A stretch of 48,276 nucleotides of DNA from a virus. A model generated the notes under the pieces. The model was not told where the DNA came from and made no database searches. It saw only the letters and a program-made list of their open reading frames with translations. Position numbers and translations under genes: made by a program. Position 1 is the first letter of the stretch. Each line of letters opens with the position of its first letter. The stretch covers positions 1 through 48,276 of IMG/VR virus record IMGVR_UViG_3300030390_000436; one strand, written 5' to 3'. This document shows, in pieces, positions 18,661 to 40,524 of this stretch.

Positions 18661-18709
18661 AGTAAAGAAGGAGAATGGCGAATGGAAATTGCGAGAGAAA
18701 GAAACATGA
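18404..18709 (+). CDS. Winged-helix-like protein (101 aa)
   Basis: A 101-aa basic protein whose C-terminal half has a winged-helix pattern (KFYLLVLMKERPLWTVPMLQ; WLTELKKQRKVKKENGEWKL). Its stop overlaps the next gene's ATG as ATGA at 18706-18709, which supports this frame as the coding one. The N-terminal 40 residues are less convincing and lie inside the previous gene's frame. Probably a DNA-binding regulator. Confidence 0.55.
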   Translation: MKDFKTNLQSMRSLAKKENKQMMKICRPTSAVLSPDRIVTEEMQKFYLLVLMKERPLWTVPMLQRKLRVKQCMILTWLTELKKQRKVKKENGEWKLREKET

Positions 18710-19224
18710 AAGAGTTTGACACTACAAAGATGCCGGCGGTGGTCGAGACGAACACCTTCTCTGGTAGTGCATTTGCAGTGAACTCTCAAGGCGAACAGAT
18801 CTTTATCAACTCTCGGATCATGGAGCGCATGAAGTTAAGAGAGGGCATGCAAGTCAATGCGTATGTTCTCCCCAACTACGAGGACAAGAGGGACACTATA
18901 CCTTGGCGCGCTATGCGGGTGGACACTACCCACAGTGACATTGCAGAACCACGGGATGAGTTGTCTGAAACAGACAGAGAGATCATGCGTATATTGTGGG
19001 ACAAGGAAGAGATCGGCAGACTATGGACTGACAAAGAGATAGCCGAGAAAGTAAATGCCGAGGCTGTCACAACTTTGGACACTGCATCTTCATTCGATTG
19101 CCATCGATCATGTGTCAGGTTGCACGATCGAGGGTTCATTTGCCGAGTTGATTTCAGCAGCGATCCTAAACCAATCCGGTCCACGATTTTGTGGACAGCA
19201 GACATCAGGGATTTTGAAGACTGA
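18706..19224 (+). CDS. OB/cold-shock-like plus winged-helix protein (172 aa)
   Basis: The N-terminal half resembles a cold-shock/OB fold (GSAFAVNSQGEQIFINSRIM; LREGMQVNAYVLPNYEDK; IPWRAMRV). The C-terminal half is a helical, winged-helix-like part (ETDREIMRILWDKEE; TDKEIAEKVNAEAVTT; VRLHDRGFICRVDF). The start is set by the ATGA overlap. It may bind single-stranded nucleic acid and regulate early genes. The domain calls are from pattern only. Confidence 0.6.
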   Translation: MKEFDTTKMPAVVETNTFSGSAFAVNSQGEQIFINSRIMERMKLREGMQVNAYVLPNYEDKRDTIPWRAMRVDTTHSDIAEPRDELSETDREIMRILWDKEEIGRLWTDKEIAEKVNAEAVTTLDTASSFDCHRSCVRLHDRGFICRVDFSSDPKPIRSTILWTADIRDFED

Positions 19225-20039: not shown

Positions 20040-20277
20040 TTGACTTTCCAATCTTACCTTTGCGTAATCTTTCGGGCTCCTTGCTGTAGCCTCTGATCTG
20101 AGTTACGTTATTGCGTTTCATGGACTTGAGTATCATTGCTGATATGTCTTCATCCAATCCGGTCTGTTGAGATAGAATCTTAGAACCAGTGTCCAAGTTT
20201 CTCAGTCCACGTTTGTAGTCTACCATGGTTTCTATTGCGGCATCGTGTTCTACTTTGCCGGCTTTAGTGTCAGCCAT
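20023..20277 (-). CDS. Small basic helical protein of SNF2 unit (84 aa)
   Basis: An 84-aa protein (MADTKAGKVEHDAAIETMVD; KILSQQTGLDEDISAMILKS) with a basic tail (RLRKGKIGKSNEPKR). It overlaps the helicase stop by 28 bases and the next gene by 17 bases, so all three are co-translated. It may be a DNA-binding partner of the helicase. Function not recognised. Confidence 0.6.
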   Translation of the reverse strand: MADTKAGKVEHDAAIETMVDYKRGLRNLDTGSKILSQQTGLDEDISAMILKSMKRNNVTQIRGYSKEPERLRKGKIGKSNEPKR

Positions 20278-21716
20278 TCTCTTGCTTCCTCTCCTAAAAC
20301 TTTTGCACCGATATCAATCTTAGATCGAAGGGACTTAACAATACGCTCATCAAGTGTACCCTCGCTGATCAGATCGACATAAGTGACAGGATTTTTTTGA
20401 CCGATTCGGTGCGCCCTGTCTTCACTTTGGATACGAGTTTCCAAGTTAAAGTCATTGGCATAGTATACCACAAGGTTAGCCTCGGTCAAAGTCAGGCCGT
20501 ACCCTGCGGTAGCTGGATTACCCACAAAGAATTTGAGTGGGTGATTAGAATCTTGGAAGTTAGTAACGATTGCTTGCCGTTCATCACCTCCGGTGTCCCC
20601 GAAGTAAGAAGCAGCGGACCCAGATCCGAGGGTCCTGTTGAGTGTAGCAGTGATCTCTTTTATGTCATGTCGAAACCGTGACCATATGATCGCCTTGCCA
20701 TCATGCTCTTCCAAAATTTCTAGCAGTGCATCCATTCTCCGAGTTGGAAACGTCATCATCGTTCCATCGTCAGACATGAGATGCCCTGACATAATCTGTT
20801 GTATTCTTAGAAGCTGGGTAATTACGGCCGGCGCCGTGACCAACTCTCCATTGTCGAGCATCAACAGTGCTTGTCGCTGGATGTCATCGTACATCTTTGC
20901 TTGTTCTGTTGTCAGCGTAACGTGTCGAACTGTGTATGTTTTGTCGGGCAGATCCAAACAATCTTTCTTCAATACTCGATAGCTAAACTGATCTATCTTC
21001 TCGGTTAACTCATCGAGGTTCTTGTAACCCAGCACTTGTTGAAAGGCGTGGGCTCCCATGTTTCTGCGTTGCAGCACAGCATACCGACCTTGGAATGCGT
21101 AGAACGAATCATATCCTAGTAACCCAGGTCCAAGGAACTCTGCTTGTGCATATATATCCATGGGTGATTTGGTTATTGGTGATCCGGTCAGCAATCTTTT
21201 GTACTTAAACCCTTCAGCAATTTTAATCAGGGCCTTTGTGCGCTTGGCTTTACTATTCTTGATTGTAGTGGACTCATCGATTGCGATCATCCCGTGCTTA
21301 CCTAGGTGTTTCGCCAACCACTTGCCTGCTACTTGTCCCTTGGTTGTGGAAAACGCTTCAACATTCATGACAAAGATAGTCAGACCGGAGAAAGGTTCCT
21401 TGACTGACTGGACTTCAGCCTGTTGTTTTTTATTTCCAACAGACACCCATCGAATCACACGGTGCGGAACGTCATCCGACATGTGTTGAGGGATTTCTTT
21501 GGCTATCCAGTTCCTATACACACCCTTTGGTGCGATGATCAGGGCGAAGTTGACTTCCCCTTTTGTAAACAACTGACCGAGGTTATCGATCAGCACTTTA
21601 GATTTACCCGTTCCCATCTCCATAAAGAAGCCGAAGGACAATCTATCTCCAACAGCGTCTAAGGAAGTCTTTTGATGGTCATATGGTACTGTTTTAAATT
21701 TATAGTTGACAGTCAT
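20250..21716 (-). CDS. SNF2-family (SF2) DNA helicase/translocase
   Basis: A 488-aa protein with two RecA-like lobes. Lobe 1 has Walker A MGTGKS (34-39), ALIIAPKG (motif Ia) and the DEST box (147-150). Lobe 2 has AIIWSRFRHDI, VVYYANDFNLETR and the motif VI region QSEDRAHRIGQ (430-440), the Snf2 signature. No accessory domain is visible, so this is the short phage type. Such enzymes move on dsDNA and may aid recombination-dependent replication or fork handling. ATG 21716 has AGGAGG upstream. It is read divergently from the replication operon. Confidence 0.92.
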   Translation of the reverse strand: MTVNYKFKTVPYDHQKTSLDAVGDRLSFGFFMEMGTGKSKVLIDNLGQLFTKGEVNFALIIAPKGVYRNWIAKEIPQHMSDDVPHRVIRWVSVGNKKQQAEVQSVKEPFSGLTIFVMNVEAFSTTKGQVAGKWLAKHLGKHGMIAIDESTTIKNSKAKRTKALIKIAEGFKYKRLLTGSPITKSPMDIYAQAEFLGPGLLGYDSFYAFQGRYAVLQRRNMGAHAFQQVLGYKNLDELTEKIDQFSYRVLKKDCLDLPDKTYTVRHVTLTTEQAKMYDDIQRQALLMLDNGELVTAPAVITQLLRIQQIMSGHLMSDDGTMMTFPTRRMDALLEILEEHDGKAIIWSRFRHDIKEITATLNRTLGSGSAASYFGDTGGDERQAIVTNFQDSNHPLKFFVGNPATAGYGLTLTEANLVVYYANDFNLETRIQSEDRAHRIGQKNPVTYVDLISEGTLDERIVKSLRSKIDIGAKVLGEEAREWLTLKPAK

Positions 21717-21752: not shown

Positions 21753-21773
21753 AGTTGTGTGTCAACCACAACT
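21753..21773. promoter_or_regulatory. Operator-like inverted repeat between SNF2 and replication operons
   Basis: AGTTGTG, 7 bases (TGTCAAC), CACAACT, a perfect 7-bp inverted repeat placed 37 bases from the SNF2 start and 18 bases before the replication operon. It could be an operator for both units or a leader hairpin. Confidence 0.5.
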
Positions 21774-21790
21774 CTGAAGAGGGATTACTT

Positions 21791-22351
21791 ATGACAGAAA
21801 TATTTGAAGACATGTTTGACGAAAGCCACGCCTTGGCAGATGTCAATGAACAAACAGGGAAGCAACTCAGCACCCTTGTAAAACAATTAAGACAAGTAGA
21901 AAGTCAGATGGAGGATGCTGAACAGCATTTGAAGTCTCTAAGAGCAGAGAAGCATAGGCTCTCTGTTGAGAACATCCCATCGTTAATGGATGAGATGGGC
22001 ATGGAGCGTATTGATGTAGACGGACTGACTGTTGAGCGTAAGCTGATGGTACATGCATCTATCCCAGCAGACAATAAAGAACAGGCGTTCGGTTGGTTAC
22101 GGGAGAACAACCTCGATGACATCATTAAGAATGACATCACTTGTTCCTTTGGCAAGGGGCAGGACAATCTAGCAGGCGATGTCGTTGGTATCCTGCGAGA
22201 GAAAGGTTTTGATCCTAAGACCAAGACCCACGTCCATCCAAGTACACTCAAGGCGTTCATTAAAGAACGTATCACCGCAGACAAACCAGTAGACCTCGAC
22301 ATGTTCGGGGCATTCGTAGCCAACGCAGCACATATCCGGAGGAAAACATAA
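21791..22351 (+). CDS. Coiled-coil replication-operon protein (186 aa)
   Basis: A 186-aa protein with a long coiled coil (about residues 20-65: LVKQLRQVESQMEDAEQHLK) and a globular second half (GMERIDVDGLTVERKLMVHA; VDLDMFGAFVANAAHIRRK at the end). It opens the replication operon, immediately before the SSB-like gene (TAATG overlap). Proteins of this shape accompany SSB-like genes in many phages. It may be a recombination mediator or loader, but that is inference. Confidence 0.65.
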   Translation: MTEIFEDMFDESHALADVNEQTGKQLSTLVKQLRQVESQMEDAEQHLKSLRAEKHRLSVENIPSLMDEMGMERIDVDGLTVERKLMVHASIPADNKEQAFGWLRENNLDDIIKNDITCSFGKGQDNLAGDVVGILREKGFDPKTKTHVHPSTLKAFIKERITADKPVDLDMFGAFVANAAHIRRKT

Positions 22352-23142
22352 TGGGTAACGCAGTCGCAAATAAAAAAAATGCAGAGTTAAGCACAGACTT
22401 TATGGATGATATCTTTGCAGATGGTGATGAGGGTACAACCTTTGCCGCCGACGAAATGATCATACCATTTATTCGTTTGGCACAAGCTATGTCTCCGGAA
22501 CTAAAGAAGAAGGAAGCAAAGTACATCGAGGGGTTGGATGAAGGTGATATCTTTAACAACCTTACCAATGAGGTGTATCCTGGCGACGATGGCATCAAGG
22601 TTATTCCTTGTTACGTTGTCACTAAATATACTGAGTGGCTTCCTGATCGTGGCGGGTTTGTGCAGGACTTAGATCCAAGTGACCCTACTATTGCTCAACG
22701 CAGAAGGGACGGTAACACTGAGATCCTTCCTAACGGAAACCATCTTCAGATTGCTGACTGTTACTTCTGTCTGTTGGTTACTGAAGATGAAGACTACATG
22801 CCTGTTGTCATTGACATGAAGGTTTCACAGATGAAAGTTTCAAAGCGTTGGAAATCTATGATCGCTATGAACAAAGCAAAGAATCCTAAGACAGGGCAGA
22901 TGCAGGTGTTGTCGTTGTTCAGCACGATGTGGAAGGTAGTATCGGTTGGAGATTCAAACAAGGCTGGTCAGCCTTACGCTAACTATGCCGTATCTAAAGT
23001 AGGTCCGGTAGCAAACCCAGTTCTACGGAATGAAGCTAAGAAGTTTCGTGCGAGTGTAGAGACTGGCGAGGCAAGAGCTATGACCGAGGAGACTTCTTCG
23101 GAGAACAGCGATGCCGTCGAGGAAGATGAAATACCGTTTTAA
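22351..23142 (+). CDS. Single-strand DNA-binding-like protein with acidic tip
   Basis: A 263-aa protein that ends EEDEIPF, matching the conserved C-terminal tip of bacterial SSB (DDIPF), which recruits partner enzymes. The preceding 20 residues are acidic. The body is beta-rich (GIKVIPCYVVTKYTEWLPDR; YMPVVIDMKVSQMKVSKRWK), compatible with an OB-fold ssDNA-binding protein, although no direct homology could be checked. The position in the replication operon agrees. A strong terminator follows 9 bases after the stop. Confidence 0.7.
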   Translation: MGNAVANKKNAELSTDFMDDIFADGDEGTTFAADEMIIPFIRLAQAMSPELKKKEAKYIEGLDEGDIFNNLTNEVYPGDDGIKVIPCYVVTKYTEWLPDRGGFVQDLDPSDPTIAQRRRDGNTEILPNGNHLQIADCYFCLLVTEDEDYMPVVIDMKVSQMKVSKRWKSMIAMNKAKNPKTGQMQVLSLFSTMWKVVSVGDSNKAGQPYANYAVSKVGPVANPVLRNEAKKFRASVETGEARAMTEETSSENSDAVEEDEIPF

Positions 23143-23151
23143 TTAAAGCGG

Positions 23152-23192
23152 GGGGTAGTTCTTGTAGAAAAGAACTACCCCTTTTTATTTTT
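23152..23192 (+). terminator. Strong terminator/attenuator between SSB-like and primase genes
   Basis: A 12-bp perfect stem GGGGTAGTTCTT/AAGAACTACCCC with a 6-base loop, then TTTTTATTTTT. It lies 9 bases after the SSB-like stop and 15 bases before the primase start. It would let the SSB-like protein be made in excess over the downstream enzymes. Confidence 0.9.
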
Positions 23193-23206
23193 CCAAGGGG
23201 CAAATA

Positions 23207-24736
23207 ATGTCAGATGCAAAAAAATTATTAGAAACGTTTGAGGGATCGAGCGCGGCTCACGGGACAACTGTTGTTGGTCGTGTTGGAAGAAACGGTAAAG
23301 CCGAGTCCGATAGCCGTGTTGTTCGTGGCGTACTTACAGAAGAAAAAATACAGGAACACATCGAAGGTAAGATGGGGGTGGGCTCTATTCCTATTAACCA
23401 AGACAACATGTGTAAGTTCGGTGCGTTAGATATAGATACATATGACTTGGATTTAAAAGCCTTGAACAGCAAGGTTCATCAGTTGAAGCTGCCATTAATC
23501 ATGTGCAGATCCAAGTCCGGTGGCGCCCATCTTTACTTGTTCACAAAGGATTGGGAGCCTGCGGCCTTGATCCGAGAATACCTAACCGAGATGTCAGTTG
23601 CGTTGGGTTACAGTGGGTGTGAGATATTTCCAAAGCAAGACAAGATCCTTGCTGATCGAGGAGATGTAGGCAACTTTATTAACATGCCTTACTACGGTGG
23701 GGACATCACAACACGCTACGCATTGGACACCAAGGGTGAGTCAATGACCTTGGCTCAGTTCCATAAGGCTGTATCAAAAGCAAAAGTGTCCGCTTCGGAC
23801 CTAGATTCTTTAACCTTTGGTGGTGAACGATCACACTTTACTGACGGTCCTTACTGCTTGGAAGTTATTGCAAGCCAAGGTGCGGTCACAGAATACCGTA
23901 ACATCTTTATGTTTAACGTCGGTGTATACTGCCGGCTAAAGTGGCCGGATGATTGGAAGAAGCATCACGAAGATTATAATCGAATGCTATGCAGTCCATC
24001 GTTAGAGGCGGGAGAGATTGTAGATCTGCAAAAGTCTTTGATGAAGAAAGACTACTTCTTACAATGCGAAGTCTGCCCTCTCAAGGATCACTGTGACAAG
24101 ACTATATGCAAGTCCAGACCGTTTGGTATAGGCGGTAGCGCGCCTGATGCACCCGAAGTTGGTGGCCTGACGATCATGTTGTCGGAACCTCGCATGTATT
24201 TCATGGATGTTAACGGTCAAAGGCTACAGCTTACTGTTGAACAACTACAGAACCAAACGTTGTGGCAGCGGTCATGCATGGAACAACTAAGCATGATGCC
24301 ACCAAACATGAAGGCCAATGACTGGCAACAGATGGTCAACAGTTTGATGGAGAAGTCTGTGAAGATGGAGGTCCCCGAAGAACTTACAATCAGTGGTCAG
24401 TTCAAGGAACTCCTAACCACTTACTGCACCAGTCGGATCAGGGCGATAGCACCAGAAGAAGTGTCTATGGGTAAACCTTGGACCGAGGACAACCTTACTA
24501 AGTTTACAATGAGTGGCTTGATGCAGTTTCTAAAGAACAGAAGCTTCAACGACTACAACAGAGCAGAGGTTCAAGAGCAAATAAAAAATATGAACGACGG
24601 TCTCGATTATCATGGGCATTTAAATATTAGAAAGCCTGATGGCAGTCGAACATCAATACGGGTCTGGTGGGTGCCGGCCTTTGAAAATGAAACAGCACTA
24701 CAAAAAGTGGAGATCGATAATGACATTCCCTTCTGA
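23207..24736 (+). CDS. Archaeo-eukaryotic-type primase (TOTE-like) with SSB-type tail
   Basis: A 509-aa protein with AEP primase motifs: FGALDIDTYD (Asp75, Asp77; metal ligands), RSKSGGAHLYLF (His108) and the EIFPKQDKI...GNFINMPYYGG block typical of TOTE-type primases. A CxxC-x5-C-x4-C cluster (Cys286, 289, 295, 300) probably binds zinc or Fe-S. The C-terminus is NDIPF, an SSB-like tip. It replaces the DnaG-type primase of T7 gp4 here and may have primase and polymerase activity. It overlaps the AlpA-like gene by 17 bases. Confidence 0.8.
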   Translation: MSDAKKLLETFEGSSAAHGTTVVGRVGRNGKAESDSRVVRGVLTEEKIQEHIEGKMGVGSIPINQDNMCKFGALDIDTYDLDLKALNSKVHQLKLPLIMCRSKSGGAHLYLFTKDWEPAALIREYLTEMSVALGYSGCEIFPKQDKILADRGDVGNFINMPYYGGDITTRYALDTKGESMTLAQFHKAVSKAKVSASDLDSLTFGGERSHFTDGPYCLEVIASQGAVTEYRNIFMFNVGVYCRLKWPDDWKKHHEDYNRMLCSPSLEAGEIVDLQKSLMKKDYFLQCEVCPLKDHCDKTICKSRPFGIGGSAPDAPEVGGLTIMLSEPRMYFMDVNGQRLQLTVEQLQNQTLWQRSCMEQLSMMPPNMKANDWQQMVNSLMEKSVKMEVPEELTISGQFKELLTTYCTSRIRAIAPEEVSMGKPWTEDNLTKFTMSGLMQFLKNRSFNDYNRAEVQEQIKNMNDGLDYHGHLNIRKPDGSRTSIRVWWVPAFENETALQKVEIDNDIPF

Positions 24737-24944
24737 TGAAAAACTAATGCGTATCGCAGAACTCAGCGAATGGCTTAGTGTACATAAGTCAACCATCTAC
24801 AAGTGGGTTGAGCAACGGGACTTTCCCAAACCAATTATCTTGGGCGAGAATGATGGCGCCAAGAACACAGCCAGCCGGTGGGTTGAGCAAGAGGTACGCG
24901 AATGGTTGAAGGAACGTCCAAGAGGCAAGAACTTTGAAGACTGA
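24720..24944 (+). CDS. AlpA/excisionase-like HTH protein (74 aa)
   Basis: A 74-aa protein with MRIAELSEWLSVHKSTIYKW followed by VEQRDFPKP, then WVEQEVREWLKERPRG. This matches AlpA/MerR-type winged HTH regulators (helix-turn-helix, then FPxP, then W...V..W). The ATG at 24720 overlaps the primase end, and a shorter start at 24747 is possible. In phages such proteins act as excisionases or activators. No integrase is visible, so a regulatory role is more likely. Confidence 0.78.
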   Translation: MTFPSDEKLMRIAELSEWLSVHKSTIYKWVEQRDFPKPIILGENDGAKNTASRWVEQEVREWLKERPRGKNFED

Positions 24945-26457
24945 TCAACTACTGTTGGGGCCCCCAGGTTGCGGCAAAACCCACACACTTATGCAGATGG
25001 TCGAAGATGCACTGGCTCAAGGTACGAGGCCCGAAGAGATAGGGTTCATGTCCTTTACCAAGAAGGCCGTAGAGGAAGCACGGGGCCGTGCGTGTGCGAG
25101 GTTTAACCTAGAGAATAAACAACTGCCTTGGTTTAGAACCCTGCACTCAGCGGCGTGGAGATCGCTTGGCTTGTCCCGTAACGACCTGTTGTCGATGGAA
25201 GACTGGAGAACCTTGGGGCAAACTCTGGGTCTGTCTTTCAAGGGAGCGGACGCTGCATCTCCGGATGATGGCATCCTGATTGCCGCGGTTGGCGGTGACG
25301 GTAGCAAGTATCTCCAGATGATAGACCGTTCACGGTATCGTCAGTGTACATTAGAGCAAGAGTTTAACGATGCAGAAGACTACAACCTGCACTTCAGTAA
25401 GATGAAACAGATTCACGAAACGGTAACCAGCTACAAGTCTGACAATCAGAAGGTAGACTTTGCTGACATGATCGAATTGGCTTTAGACATAGAGCCTCCA
25501 CGTTTGCAACTACTCTTGATAGACGAGGCTCAAGATCTCACACCACTTCAATGGGAGATGGTACTGCATTGGAGAACGAATGCAGAGAGGGTTGTGTATT
25601 CGGGAGACGACGATCAGGCTATCCACCGGTGGACCGGTGTAGTCGTTGAAAGGTTCATGCAAGTTACAGACAACGTAGATATCTTGTCACAATCTTACCG
25701 TCTACCCAAGCTAGTCTTTGATCTGTCTCAACAGATTGTAAAGCGTATCCACACACGGTTTGAGAAAGAGTTCTATCCAACCACTGAAGAGGGTGTTGTT
25801 CAGTACCATCAGACCATGGACAGTGTACCGATACACGAAGGCTCTTGGACAATCATGTGCCGGACCAATAGTTTTGTCAGGGAGTTTGCTGAGATCTTGA
25901 GAGAGTCAGGGTACTTGTACTCGATGAAGGGCACCCCTTCTATCAAGACGGAAGTAGGTAGGGCCATTCAAACCTGGAGAGAACTGCAAGCAGGGGACAT
26001 GGTTTCTGTCGATCGAATCAAGAAGATGTATGAGGTTGTGCCAAAGCAGGGGGACTACAAGGTTGTTAAGCGTGGAGCCGGCAATCTGTTAGATGCAGCG
26101 GACCCAACAGGTGATCTAAACATGGACGATCTGTACAAGCATTACGGGCTAGAGTGTGAAAGAACACGCGATGCCATGGATGTTGTGCGTCTGGGCAGCG
26201 ATGACAAGATGTATGCACAAGCTATCGAACGCAGGGGCGAGTCGATTACTGAGCCGCCTAGAATTAAAGTATCAACCTTTCATGCAATGAAGGGTGGCGA
26301 AGATGATAAGTGCTTGGTGTTCTTAGCTTCAACCAAGGCATGCATGGAGTCAAGGTATCCGGATGATGAGCATCGAGCGTTCTATGTAGGGGTCACACGC
26401 GCGCAAAAAGAACTGCATATTTTGGACACAGACAAGAAGTATAGGTATGAATTATGA
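24934..26457 (+). CDS. UvrD/Rep-like SF1 helicase
   Basis: A 507-aa SF1A helicase. Motif I is LGPPGCGKTHTL (residues 8-19), Ia is FMSFTKKAVEEAR, motif II is LLIDEAQDLTPLQW, motif III is YSGDDDQAIHRWTG, motif V is STFHAMKGGEDD and motif VI is FYVGVTRAQKEL. The set is complete, so the enzyme should be active, probably unwinding 3' to 5'. The start is TTG at 24934 with AGAGG 8 bases upstream; no ATG precedes the Walker A. It is a candidate replicative helicase because no gp4- or DnaB-type helicase was found. Confidence 0.9.
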   Translation: MKTDQLLLGPPGCGKTHTLMQMVEDALAQGTRPEEIGFMSFTKKAVEEARGRACARFNLENKQLPWFRTLHSAAWRSLGLSRNDLLSMEDWRTLGQTLGLSFKGADAASPDDGILIAAVGGDGSKYLQMIDRSRYRQCTLEQEFNDAEDYNLHFSKMKQIHETVTSYKSDNQKVDFADMIELALDIEPPRLQLLLIDEAQDLTPLQWEMVLHWRTNAERVVYSGDDDQAIHRWTGVVVERFMQVTDNVDILSQSYRLPKLVFDLSQQIVKRIHTRFEKEFYPTTEEGVVQYHQTMDSVPIHEGSWTIMCRTNSFVREFAEILRESGYLYSMKGTPSIKTEVGRAIQTWRELQAGDMVSVDRIKKMYEVVPKQGDYKVVKRGAGNLLDAADPTGDLNMDDLYKHYGLECERTRDAMDVVRLGSDDKMYAQAIERRGESITEPPRIKVSTFHAMKGGEDDKCLVFLASTKACMESRYPDDEHRAFYVGVTRAQKELHILDTDKKYRYEL

Positions 26458-27046: not shown

Positions 27047-27353
27047 AATTTTGGACAAGGCGAAAGACTTAGTCAACGGAGCTAGGGCCAAGGATTATGG
27101 AGATGCGTTCGAGAACCACAGCCGCATAGCCAATGGATGGAACGTCATAATGAACGGGGCTCTGATAAGCCACGGCTACCTGACAGAGCAACACGTTGTC
27201 TTAATGATGGATTGGGTGAAGACTGCTCGTCTTCTTGAGACCATGGACCATGATGATTCGTGGACGGACAAGGCAGGGTATTCAAGCTTGGGTGGAGAGT
27301 TCTCCGAAGAGACCAGATCGATAGAAGAACTAACAGAGATGGCGAAAAAATAA
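27033..27353 (+). CDS. DUF6378-like phage protein (106 aa)
   Basis: A 106-aa protein with ARAKDYGDAFENHSRIANGW, LTEQHVVLMMDWVKTARLLE and HDDSWTDKAGYSSLGGEF. This matches the recurring phage pattern RxKDYGxxxENFxRIAxxW ... DVALMMxxxKxARL ... DSWxDIAGYAxLGxE (DUF6378). The all-alpha fold may relate to nucleotide-handling proteins, but its activity is unknown. The stop overlaps the polymerase start as TAATG. Confidence 0.8.
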   Translation: MKRNEILDKAKDLVNGARAKDYGDAFENHSRIANGWNVIMNGALISHGYLTEQHVVLMMDWVKTARLLETMDHDDSWTDKAGYSSLGGEFSEETRSIEELTEMAKK

Positions 27354-29272
27354 TGACTCAAGGCAAGCTGTTTAATCTTGGCAACCAAGACAAAGACTAT
27401 CAGATCCGTTCGGAGATGGAGTTGATTGACACTGATTGGAATATACCTACTGAGTTTCCTGACTTGACGGGGTATGATCAGATAGCTGTAGACCTTGAAA
27501 CAAAGGACCCTAACATAAAGACACAAGGACCAGGATGGGCTAGAAAGGACGGACACATCATTGGTATTGCGGTAGCAGCCGGCGACTTCAAAGGGTACTT
27601 CCCCTTGCGTCATGCGAACGGACACAACCTAGATCCCACTATGACAATGCGTTGGCTCAAGACACAGATGGCTACGCCTGATGTTGATAAGATTATGCAC
27701 AACGCAACCTATGATGCTGGCTGGATGAGGGCCGAGGGCGTTGAAGTGCAGGGCCGTATTGTTGACACCATGATTACTGGCGCTTTGGTGAACGAGAACC
27801 GTTGGTCCTTTGGCCTCGATGCTATGGCAAGAGACTACGTTGGTATACGCAAGGATGAGAAGCTTCTGAAGGCCGCGGCTCAAGAGTGGGGGATAGATCC
27901 CAAGGCAGAGATGTGGCAGTTGCCGCCTAAGTATGTCGGCGCCTATGCAGAACAGGATGCTGTAGCCACGTTAAAGTTATGGCAGGCTCTGAAGATCCAG
28001 TTAGAGAAGCAGGACCTCTGGTCTATTTGGAAGCTTGAGACTGGTTTGATTCCTTGCCTGTTGGACATGAGAACCAATGGTGTGCGTGTGGACTTGGATA
28101 AGGCAGACAAGAACAAGAAGTTAATTCAGAAACGTTCTAAGGAATTGCGTCAGGATATTAAGAAGAGTGCAGGCGTAGACGTAGATATATGGGCCGGTGC
28201 ATCAGTAGCCAAGATGTTTGATAAGCTTGGGTTGGAATATCCAAGGACCGAGGCTGGAGCCCCGTCGTTCACTAAGTCTTATCTAAACTCTCACCCGCAT
28301 GAGGCTTGCCAGTCATTGGTTAAGCTTCGTGAGTTCGACAAGGCAGACAGTACATTTATCGACAGCATCTTGAAGCATGAACACAACGGACGCATACACA
28401 CAGAACTGCACTCCACTCGCAGGGATGAAGGGGGTACTGTCACCGGAAGATTTTCTTCAAGCAACCCCAACCTTCAGCAGATCCCAGCCCGTGACAAGGA
28501 GATCAAGAAGTTAATCCGAGGATTGTTTATACCAGAGGATGGAGACAAGTGGGGATCATTTGATTACTCAAGCCAAGAGCCAAGGTTATTGGTACACTTC
28601 GCGGCATCGATGCCACCCAACATGCAGGATCCCGTGCTTCAAACCATCGTTGAAGAGTTCAACACTAGCGATGTAGACCTTCACCAGATCGTTGCAGATT
28701 TGGCAGGGATCACACGCAAGCAAGCCAAGACTGTAAACCTGGGTATCATGTATGGCATGGGCGTAGCTAAGTTGGCGAATCAAATGGCGATCACAAAGGA
28801 TGAGGCCAAGTCAATCATCTCTGATCATCGAGAGAAGGTTCCATTCGTTAAACAGTTGGCTGACATTGCAAGCAAGAGGGCCGGCAACAACGGGCAGATA
28901 CGGACGCTCCTAGGTAGGCTGTGTCGCTTTGATATGTGGGAGCCTACGTCTTTTGAGTACAACAAACCTTTGCCTCTGGAGGAAGCGGAGAAGGAGTATG
29001 GGGGCATGGGCAAGTTACGCCGTGCGTTTACATACAAGGCATTGAACCGTTTGATCCAAGGATCCGCGGCCGATCAGACTAAGAAAGCGATGCTTGATTG
29101 CTATAACGCTGGACTTACTCCTATGCTCACGGTCCACGATGAGTTATGCTTCAGTATAGGAAGCGACAAACAAGCCACTCAAGTCAAAGAAATTATGGAG
29201 ACTGGCGTACCTTTAAAGGTTCCTTCCAAGATTGATCAAGAACTCAAGGATAATTGGGGAGAGATTGAATGA
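27353..29272 (+). CDS. Family A DNA polymerase with 3'-5' exonuclease, Leu762 type
   Basis: A 639-aa replicative polymerase. Exonuclease: VDLET (Asp47, Glu49), HNATYDAGW (Asp121), YAEQDAVAT (Tyr198, Asp202). Polymerase: motif A SFDYSSQEPRLL (Asp404, Glu409), motif B RKQAKTVNLGIMYG (Arg455, Lys459, Tyr467), motif C TVHDELCF (His595, Asp596, Glu597). The residue equal to E. coli Phe762 is Leu463. No 5'-nuclease domain is present. The start at 27353 overlaps the DUF6378-like stop, and the size is typical of phage PolA. All catalytic residues are intact. Confidence 0.95.
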   Translation: MTQGKLFNLGNQDKDYQIRSEMELIDTDWNIPTEFPDLTGYDQIAVDLETKDPNIKTQGPGWARKDGHIIGIAVAAGDFKGYFPLRHANGHNLDPTMTMRWLKTQMATPDVDKIMHNATYDAGWMRAEGVEVQGRIVDTMITGALVNENRWSFGLDAMARDYVGIRKDEKLLKAAAQEWGIDPKAEMWQLPPKYVGAYAEQDAVATLKLWQALKIQLEKQDLWSIWKLETGLIPCLLDMRTNGVRVDLDKADKNKKLIQKRSKELRQDIKKSAGVDVDIWAGASVAKMFDKLGLEYPRTEAGAPSFTKSYLNSHPHEACQSLVKLREFDKADSTFIDSILKHEHNGRIHTELHSTRRDEGGTVTGRFSSSNPNLQQIPARDKEIKKLIRGLFIPEDGDKWGSFDYSSQEPRLLVHFAASMPPNMQDPVLQTIVEEFNTSDVDLHQIVADLAGITRKQAKTVNLGIMYGMGVAKLANQMAITKDEAKSIISDHREKVPFVKQLADIASKRAGNNGQIRTLLGRLCRFDMWEPTSFEYNKPLPLEEAEKEYGGMGKLRRAFTYKALNRLIQGSAADQTKKAMLDCYNAGLTPMLTVHDELCFSIGSDKQATQVKEIMETGVPLKVPSKIDQELKDNWGEIE

Positions 29273-40188: not shown

Positions 40189-40524
40189 TTACCAAGGTAT
40201 GCCAGATGAGTTAGAAGCAGCACTATCTATCTGATCCTGCACCTTTGCTGTATTCTCAGCTTCAGTACGAGCTTTAGCTTCAGCGGAAGTTTCATCACCT
40301 TCTTTAAGGCTGTCATACACCCACCCAAGAACATCGCTCTCTTTTAAGTCTGCGTATGCGATATAATCTGACGCAGAGGGATCAGCGGTGCAACGTAGCT
40401 TGCCACCTGCTTGTGCTGAGTAAGTATCATCAGTTGTAATTAGTGACCAGTAGACAAGGAATACGCCCCCGTCTGAGTCTTTATGCGTCATGTTGTTGAC
40501 GCCCCATGTTGATGTTATTGCCAT
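40189..40524 (-). CDS. Small structural-region protein (111 aa)
   Basis: A 111-aa protein starting MAITSTWGVNNMTHKDSDGG, with VFLVYWSLITTDDTYSA and an acidic helix ending SSGIPW. I recall the xWxVxxMxxxxxDGxVxxVxWxxxxxD start from a conserved family of marine phages next to tail fibres (of DUF7936 type). Role unknown. Confidence 0.65.
   Translation of the reverse strand: MAITSTWGVNNMTHKDSDGGVFLVYWSLITTDDTYSAQAGGKLRCTADPSASDYIAYADLKESDVLGWVYDSLKEGDETSAEAKARTEAENTAKVQDQIDSAASNSSGIPW

Follow-up and report, generated by a model that had tools for sequence, protein, structure and literature searches.

Co-varying C-terminal tips of a phage SSB-like protein and an AEP primase-polymerase suggest a shared phage acceptor

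Two adjacent replication proteins encoded in a virus record of 48,276 bases (IMG/VR IMGVR_UViG_3300030390_000436; the whole stretch is called the window below) finish in closely similar peptides. One is a 263-residue protein predicted to be a single-stranded DNA-binding protein (SSB), the other a 509-residue archaeo-eukaryotic primase (AEP) by predicted fold. Their open reading frames (ORFs) close with ...VEEDEIPF-stop and ...VEIDNDIPF-stop, which confirms the DEIPF and NDIPF ends (23125-23139 and 24719-24733, both on the plus strand) that an initial annotation of this DNA had pointed out. Our principal finding is that across homologues the two tips change together. Of 15 gene pairs, only the primase and the 263-residue protein (hereafter gp34-like, after its Pfam family Pam3_Gp34) stand clearly above the level of independent evolution on the tree. 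A probable, though by no means certain, explanation is that both tips dock in one shared acceptor of the phage, most likely its family A DNA polymerase (PolA), and that competition between SSB and primase sets their exchange.

Among the 36 plausible gene ends of the window, an acidic stretch followed by IPF is found only on these two proteins; one further end reads IPW (40189-40524, minus strand). To place the tips in context, homologues were gathered from IMG/VR, named phages and GTDB genomes. In the IMG/VR loci (L001-L099), all primases with a stop codon on the contig end in PF, except those of L054 and L069, as do all gp34-like ORFs that reach the C-terminus; gp34-like pieces that stop early (L031, L013, L024/L098) have no PF end. 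Such ends are rare elsewhere: when the remaining closed frames of 60 codons or longer in the loci were inspected, just 8 of 24,760 finished with the pattern [DE]x0-2[ILVM]P[FY]. In 57 distinct primases of the window clade ending in PF (L054 and L069 left out), Ile is encoded mostly by ATC, ATT or ATA, Pro by CCC, CCA, CCT or CCG, and Phe by TTC in 57/57. The variation of the Ile and Pro codons indicates synonymous drift beneath a fixed tip peptide. Thus, the SSB-type tip noted in the initial annotation proved to be conserved on both proteins: most homologues keep it, and those without it are the individual exceptions named below. Comparison of the C-termini shows a nearly constant tip of the bacterial SSB type (acidic residues, then I-P-F, with a free C-terminus) in the window clade and a looser form across the wider family. 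Distant relatives retain a hydrophobic last residue after acidic residues, with the residue type altered, giving primase/SSB end types such as xSPF/xPF, ENF/TPY, NIV/DIV, PDL/TEL, SEF/SEF, VF/HF and APY/QPY.

The co-variation of the tips was assessed on 410 readable primase/gp34 pairs, which reduced to 314 distinct ones and, after greedy clustering at 78% identity, to 92 divergent representatives. Before pairing, loci were dropped for lack of a gp34-like hit (70), an open end (7), lack of a primase hit (4) or an X in the tail (1). Phe is the last residue in 64/92 primases and 57/92 gp34-like proteins, compared with 0/66 PolA, 5/86 UvrD and 29/823 other frames, the latter being stop-to-stop frames 150 codons long or longer, non-genes included. 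Both traits were simulated independently 1500 times along a quick maximum likelihood tree of the primase minus its tail, a tree with several long branches (L110, L469, L457). The mutual information between the last residues of the two proteins was 0.657 against 0.217 expected (z 5.9), a value reached by 0/1500 simulations, and the association of Pro at the penultimate position was stronger still (z 12.4). With the window clade removed, the corresponding z values were 5.5 and 9.5. As a control, every other pairing of primase, gp34, UvrD, PolA, SNF2 and gp33, 14 in all, gave z of 0.1-1.8; therefore, gene linkage alone is insufficient to account for the co-variation of the tips. Matched changes of type (primase/SSB) include KENIV/KQDIV, EEAPY/TKQPY, EEDPY/EEAPY and PETPY/SEAPY, and further TNEPY/AAMPY, GKPNY/ASGNY, LEPDL/EETEL and PPPFV/DIPFA.

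The initial annotation had suggested that its tip may let the primase reach a pocket used by SSB, either in the host SSB-interaction network or on a phage protein, or compete with SSB for a common partner. The ends of host SSBs were read for comparison. Of 13 loci for which a host SSB was sought in the source genome, 10 gave an SSB end readable for the motif (L495, L505 and L506 did not), and in 10/10 of those read the end is DD[DE]IPF. The 10 include the host SSBs of three SAR11 single-cell genomes (G001, G004 and G005), and yet the phage tips in the same genomes (primase/SSB) are EEAPY/TKQPY (L440, G001), PETPY/SEAPY (L464, G004) and PKDAF/TDVPY (L465, G005), with the caveat that a phage contig within a single-cell or metagenome-assembled genome need not be infecting that cell. 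Since the host tips read are constant and phage tips differ, the phage tips follow each other and not the host. On the sequence evidence, a phage-encoded socket appears to suit the family better than host partners of SSB do and is our best reading; in the window clade, whose tips still end in IPF, host binding may occur as well. Overall, the earlier interpretation is partly supported: one pocket for both SSB and primase stands as the best reading, while its identification with the host SSB network is less well supported, because the phage tips drift together away from the host tip.

What are the two proteins? The 263-residue protein (22351-23142, plus strand) belongs to Pam3_Gp34 (PF23977, E 7.3e-52; function unknown) and to phrog_2402 (E 5.6e-51), likewise of unknown function in PHROGs; the Pam3_Gp34 family has matches in 503 phage records, with Pseudomonas phages in the majority. 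Its AlphaFold2 model, built on a 51-row alignment, has a mean pLDDT (the per-residue confidence score) of 84.9, and the acidic tail ...VEEDEIPF closes a low-confidence segment predicted to be disordered (residues 247-258, pLDDT <50). The fold assignment comes from VIA-align matches of middling Z (6.6 at most), headed by the oligonucleotide-binding (OB) domains of BRCA2 (Z 6.6) and the T4 gp32 core (Z 6.5 over 152 residues), and followed by RB69 gp32 (Z 6.4) and then many bacterial SSBs (Z 3-3.8). A Foldseek search with the model found nothing at E <=0.001, and a PDB sequence search with the family profile nothing at E <=1. Both parts of a phage-type SSB, an OB-fold core and an acidic disordered C-terminal tail, are thus present in the model. 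From the structural matches, taken together with the genomic context and the acidic tail, we predict a gp32/SSB-like OB-fold protein, for which SSB is the best annotation.

The assignment of the 509-residue protein (23207-24736, plus strand) draws on several matches. It matches Pfam AEP-TOTE (E 1e-14) and the primase family phrog_21866 (E 5e-80), and its AlphaFold2 model matches the Prim-Pol domain of the CRISPR-associated Prim-Pol CAPP (7nqf) with Z 20.7 over residues 1-204 and other PrimPols with Z 10-11; the PDB search with the primase profile also led to CAPP. Residues D75, D77, S102, S104, G106 and H108, which we take to be the conserved DxD and S-x-H type motifs, are invariant in 45 sequences. 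A winged-helix-like part follows at 391-494, and the model is of low confidence from residue 495, so that the C-terminal tail (residues 495-509, 24689-24733, plus strand; pLDDT <50 for 495-507) is predicted to be disordered. By predicted fold the protein is an AEP primase-polymerase with a putative role in primer synthesis. Among the 45 homologues, Cys217 is invariant, and Cys287, Cys296 and Cys301 are conserved in at least 90%; to judge from this conservation, the cysteines might hold a metal or an Fe-S cluster in the stretch that links the AEP domain to the winged helix.

The initial annotation had called such a tip unusual on a primase, a view that proved less apt. Bacteriophage T7 provides the closest parallel, as its primase-helicase gp4 ends in SNDTDF beside the SSB, gp2.5, ending in DEDGDF; and human PrimPol binds RPA through an internal acidic/Phe motif (PMC5457501). 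The mechanism proposed here is taken from the T7 literature, in which the acidic gp4 tail is reported to contact basic patches on the polymerase (PMC5997990). The gp2.5 tail has likewise been linked to contacts with both polymerase and primase-helicase (PMC5686142). By this analogy, the window PolA (27416-29272, plus strand; start picked by alignment) would be the likeliest acceptor of both tips. The tips would act as interchangeable docking peptides borne on disordered tails, whose closing residues, acidic ones and then hydrophobic ones up to a free C-terminal Phe, would plug into one acceptor of the replisome. The primase would in this way be held at, or passed to, the polymerase on the SSB-coated lagging-strand template, and the exchange would be set by competition between the tips of SSB and primase. 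Since one socket would have to accept both, the two peptides and the socket would evolve in concert, without regard to the host SSB tip. We infer the shared socket, its identity as PolA and the hand-over.

In common with T7, the SSB and the primase of a single phage have acidic tails with Phe as the last residue, and the replisome has a family A polymerase. There are differences, too. The primase here is an AEP and unrelated to the TOPRIM primase-helicase gp4; the SSB belongs to the Pam3_Gp34 family and has gp32, not gp2.5, as its best phage structural match; and the tip is IPF as in bacteria. The T7 polymerase carries a domain that binds thioredoxin. A tail of one type shared by SSB and primase of one phage is present and co-varies as described above, and homology to a gp4-type TOPRIM primase-helicase is absent by both profile and fold match. 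We consider the window pair to be an arrangement that would work like that of T7 without being a member of it by homology, as the primase family is non-homologous. In T7-like phages themselves the tips (SSB/primase) match by type in RHEph01 (DDDIPF/ETAPF), HTVC119P (KEDFI/EHEEI), CRP-143 (GDSEY/ETPEY), S-B28 (DDDF/STDF) and CHF21 (SGDF/EPDF); mismatches, with gp2.5 ending in DF and gp4 in DY, occur in L540, L545 and L553.

The same group offers an indication of the partner. Prochlorococcus phages P-SCSP1i and P-SCSP2 are described as having no DNA polymerase gene (PMC9860041), and our PF00476 search of the two found no match. Their SSB-like proteins end in EEEF and AADF, and their gp4 proteins in GEKL and VFGD, respectively. 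That the gp4 tip is missing where PolA is missing suggests that, within this group, the primase tip has PolA as its partner. As recorded for the individual loci, the two PolA-less Prochlorococcus podoviruses (L558 and L567) keep the SSB tip and have a primase-helicase without an acidic-hydrophobic tip of that type.

Several observations weigh against PolA as the common acceptor, or against a shared acceptor altogether. The two PolA-less phages come from one clade and may represent a single event, and gp4 of CRP-4 ends in GRWT although PolA is present. Similarly, three primases lack a hydrophobic tip despite PolA (L107, NGQD; L111, DGEA; L110, KFRT), the gp34 tip being VPF in all three. Conversely, the gp34-like tip has been lost in a clade comprising L376 and L392 (AARRR), L410 (IPGQE), L419 (SEQEE) and L423 (SFRR), in which the primases end in DHI, DIPF, TPFN, IPY and DQI. 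Exceptions on either side indicate that each tip can disappear without the other. Gp34-like ends are aromatic in three PolA-less phages (L112, AEEF; L114, AEGF; L115, AKGF), which suggests that the SSB tip has other partners. Moreover, the tips match by type and not always exactly (for example, IENF/STPY), and an independent-pairs sign test gives the same direction as the simulations and is underpowered (Pro at -2: same 4.2, opposite 0.2, median p 0.125). Finally, a scan for alignment columns that track the tips, covering PolA, UvrD, SNF2, gp33, the gp34 core and the primase core, did not single out PolA; every protein was inflated, p<0.05 being reached by 10-23% of its columns, and the scan therefore cannot point to any one acceptor. 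As an aside on one of these primases, that of HTVC023P (L110:1361-2926) ends in DDDFHTGKFRT, i.e. DDDF followed by seven extra residues that overlap the next gene.

Co-variation of the tips would likewise be expected if the phage SSB were the docking site of the primase tip. The tip would then sit in the OB groove, into which the SSB tail can fold back, and recruit the primase to coated DNA much as human PrimPol is recruited by RPA. There are precedents: in human PrimPol, acidic motifs with Phe522 and Ile554 bind the basic cleft of RPA70N (PMC5457501), and the T7 gp2.5 tail is said to compete with single-stranded DNA for the same surface, as far as the title of a cited reference tells. We nevertheless regard this as unlikely, since primase tips are kept where no gp34-like gene was found (L452, SEVF, G011; L455, TTDF, G013; L463, ESEF, G014), with the reservation that another SSB may be used there and that the genomes may be incomplete, and the clade that has lost the gp34 tip also keeps the primase tip. 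A similarly low likelihood attaches to the idea that the tips engage the host proteins that interact with SSB (PriA, RecO, Exo I, Pol III chi, DnaG etc.), so that the phage proteins borrow or block host enzymes. The window tips are indeed close to the host type, pockets for the SSB C-terminus (SSB-Ct) recognise its acidic residues and its free terminal Phe (PMC5872125), and some chromosomal AEPs without a gp34 gene (L470, L485, L488) end in DEDIPF or DEDLPF. Yet phage tips differ from the SSB tips of the same genome in SAR11 and elsewhere, and tips such as NIV/DIV and PDL/TEL, which lack the Phe used by the known pockets, are still matched to each other. Mimicry of host SSB as an explanation for the whole family is therefore disfavoured by the host tips.

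The tails could also be generic acidic ends with a self-regulatory role, acting by DNA mimicry or auto-inhibition and having no common partner. The truncated Enc34 ORF6 SSB binds double-stranded DNA about as well as single-stranded DNA (PMC5686142), so its acidic tail may tune DNA binding; matched changes of the last two residues in non-homologous proteins are not predicted by this explanation, and we consider it quite improbable. Least credible of all is that the tips arose by chance or as a side effect of the next gene's start codon, which overlaps the primase end. The ATG of an AlpA-like helix-turn-helix gene (24720-24944, plus strand) likely lies within the NDIPF codons, and Phe is invariably TTC in the counted primases. 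However, this ATG is missing in 12 of those 57 sequences with IPF kept, the Ile and Pro codons vary synonymously, and in some divergent relatives still ending in NF the annotated next gene starts well downstream (L102, 3346 to 3470). Chance and gene overlap were rejected in view of the rarity of such ends among other frames, the codon drift and the ATG-less sequences.

A shared phage acceptor thus remains the preferred reading, and a broader idea can be attached to it, albeit tentatively. The tips might constitute a lineage-specific C-terminal 'password' that wires the SSB and primase of a phage to its own polymerase, differs from the host DD(D/E)IPF and so avoids phage-host cross-talk. Carried in duplicate by two non-homologous proteins, it would co-evolve with a single socket; it would have arisen at least twice, with AEP primases and with T7-type primase-helicases. 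Compared with known systems, the tip resembles the bacterial SSB-Ct DDDIPF in its acidic residues, Ile-Pro-Phe, free C-terminus and disordered linker. Unlike in bacteria, the primase bears the tip too, and relatives drift to PY, IV, EL and EF, whereas the host SSBs read do not; E. coli primase DnaG carries a pocket and not a tip (PMC5872125). Human PrimPol is similar in that it, too, is an AEP primase-polymerase whose C-terminal region holds docking motifs made of acidic residues and Phe/Ile. Its motifs lie inside the chain, are helical in the bound state and contact the SSB, RPA70N (PMC5457501), whereas here a free C-terminus resembles SSB's own tip. With CAPP of Marinitoga and AEP-TOTE proteins the phage protein shares the catalytic domain over the aligned residues 1-204; its middle region with cysteines, its winged-helix-like domain and its docking tail set it apart. 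Among the neighbouring window genes covered by the profile scan, none was recognised as a CRISPR gene.

In the open-licence literature we found no report of SSB-type tips on AEP primases or of tip co-variation. If the shared-acceptor reading is correct, the SSB and primase tips of a phage obey one code, dictated by the socket that takes them both, a rule that can be tested by sequence, and the Pam3_Gp34 family gains a function as SSB. It would also suggest how phages with AEP primases couple priming to synthesis, and the peptides could be used to fish out the socket. Wiring internal to the phage would be told apart from hijacking of the host network, a distinction usually left open for phage SSBs. 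Should the password idea hold as well, matching tips could serve to locate, from sequence alone, SSBs, primases and sockets not yet known.

The replication genes of the window span approximately 18.7-29.3 kb in the order SNF2-type helicase (20250-21716, minus strand; profile scan), a 198-residue Pam3 gp33-like protein (21755-22351, plus strand; DUF7307, E 5.9e-29), gp34-like protein, primase, AlpA-like protein, UvrD-like helicase (24934-26457, plus strand; profile scan) and PolA. The Phage_AlpA match (E 1e-8) falls on a longer ORF, 24639-24944, and the polymerase ORF, 27260-29272, matches DNA_pol_A (E 5.5e-61) and an exonuclease domain (E 6.6e-16). A strong terminator-like hairpin of 14 pairs followed by a T run (23150-23183, plus strand) separates the SSB-like gene from the primase; an Rfam scan of 22000-25200 gave no match, and a tRNA search found none. 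Near the primase, a 180-residue protein (18682-19224) has a weak match to S1CSD-TOTE-2 (E 0.0013, below the cut-off). The UvrD-like helicase is an alternative candidate acceptor; it and its relatives have a conserved hydrophobic end of their own, with Leu or Ile last in 60/86, which is not acidic. The chromosomal AEP proteins of L470, L485 and L488 are large (frames of 782, 927 and 917 residues), and their ends, DDEDIPF, NDEDLPF and IDEDIPF, resemble host SSBs; a search of these three genomes found no gp34-like gene. A small protein in L196 (15933-16253; weakly DUF736-like, E 0.003, below the cut-off) ends in FDDDIPF, and its family also occurs in L199, L203 and two more loci, where the SSB and primase tips are of other types; this small protein may address the host network.

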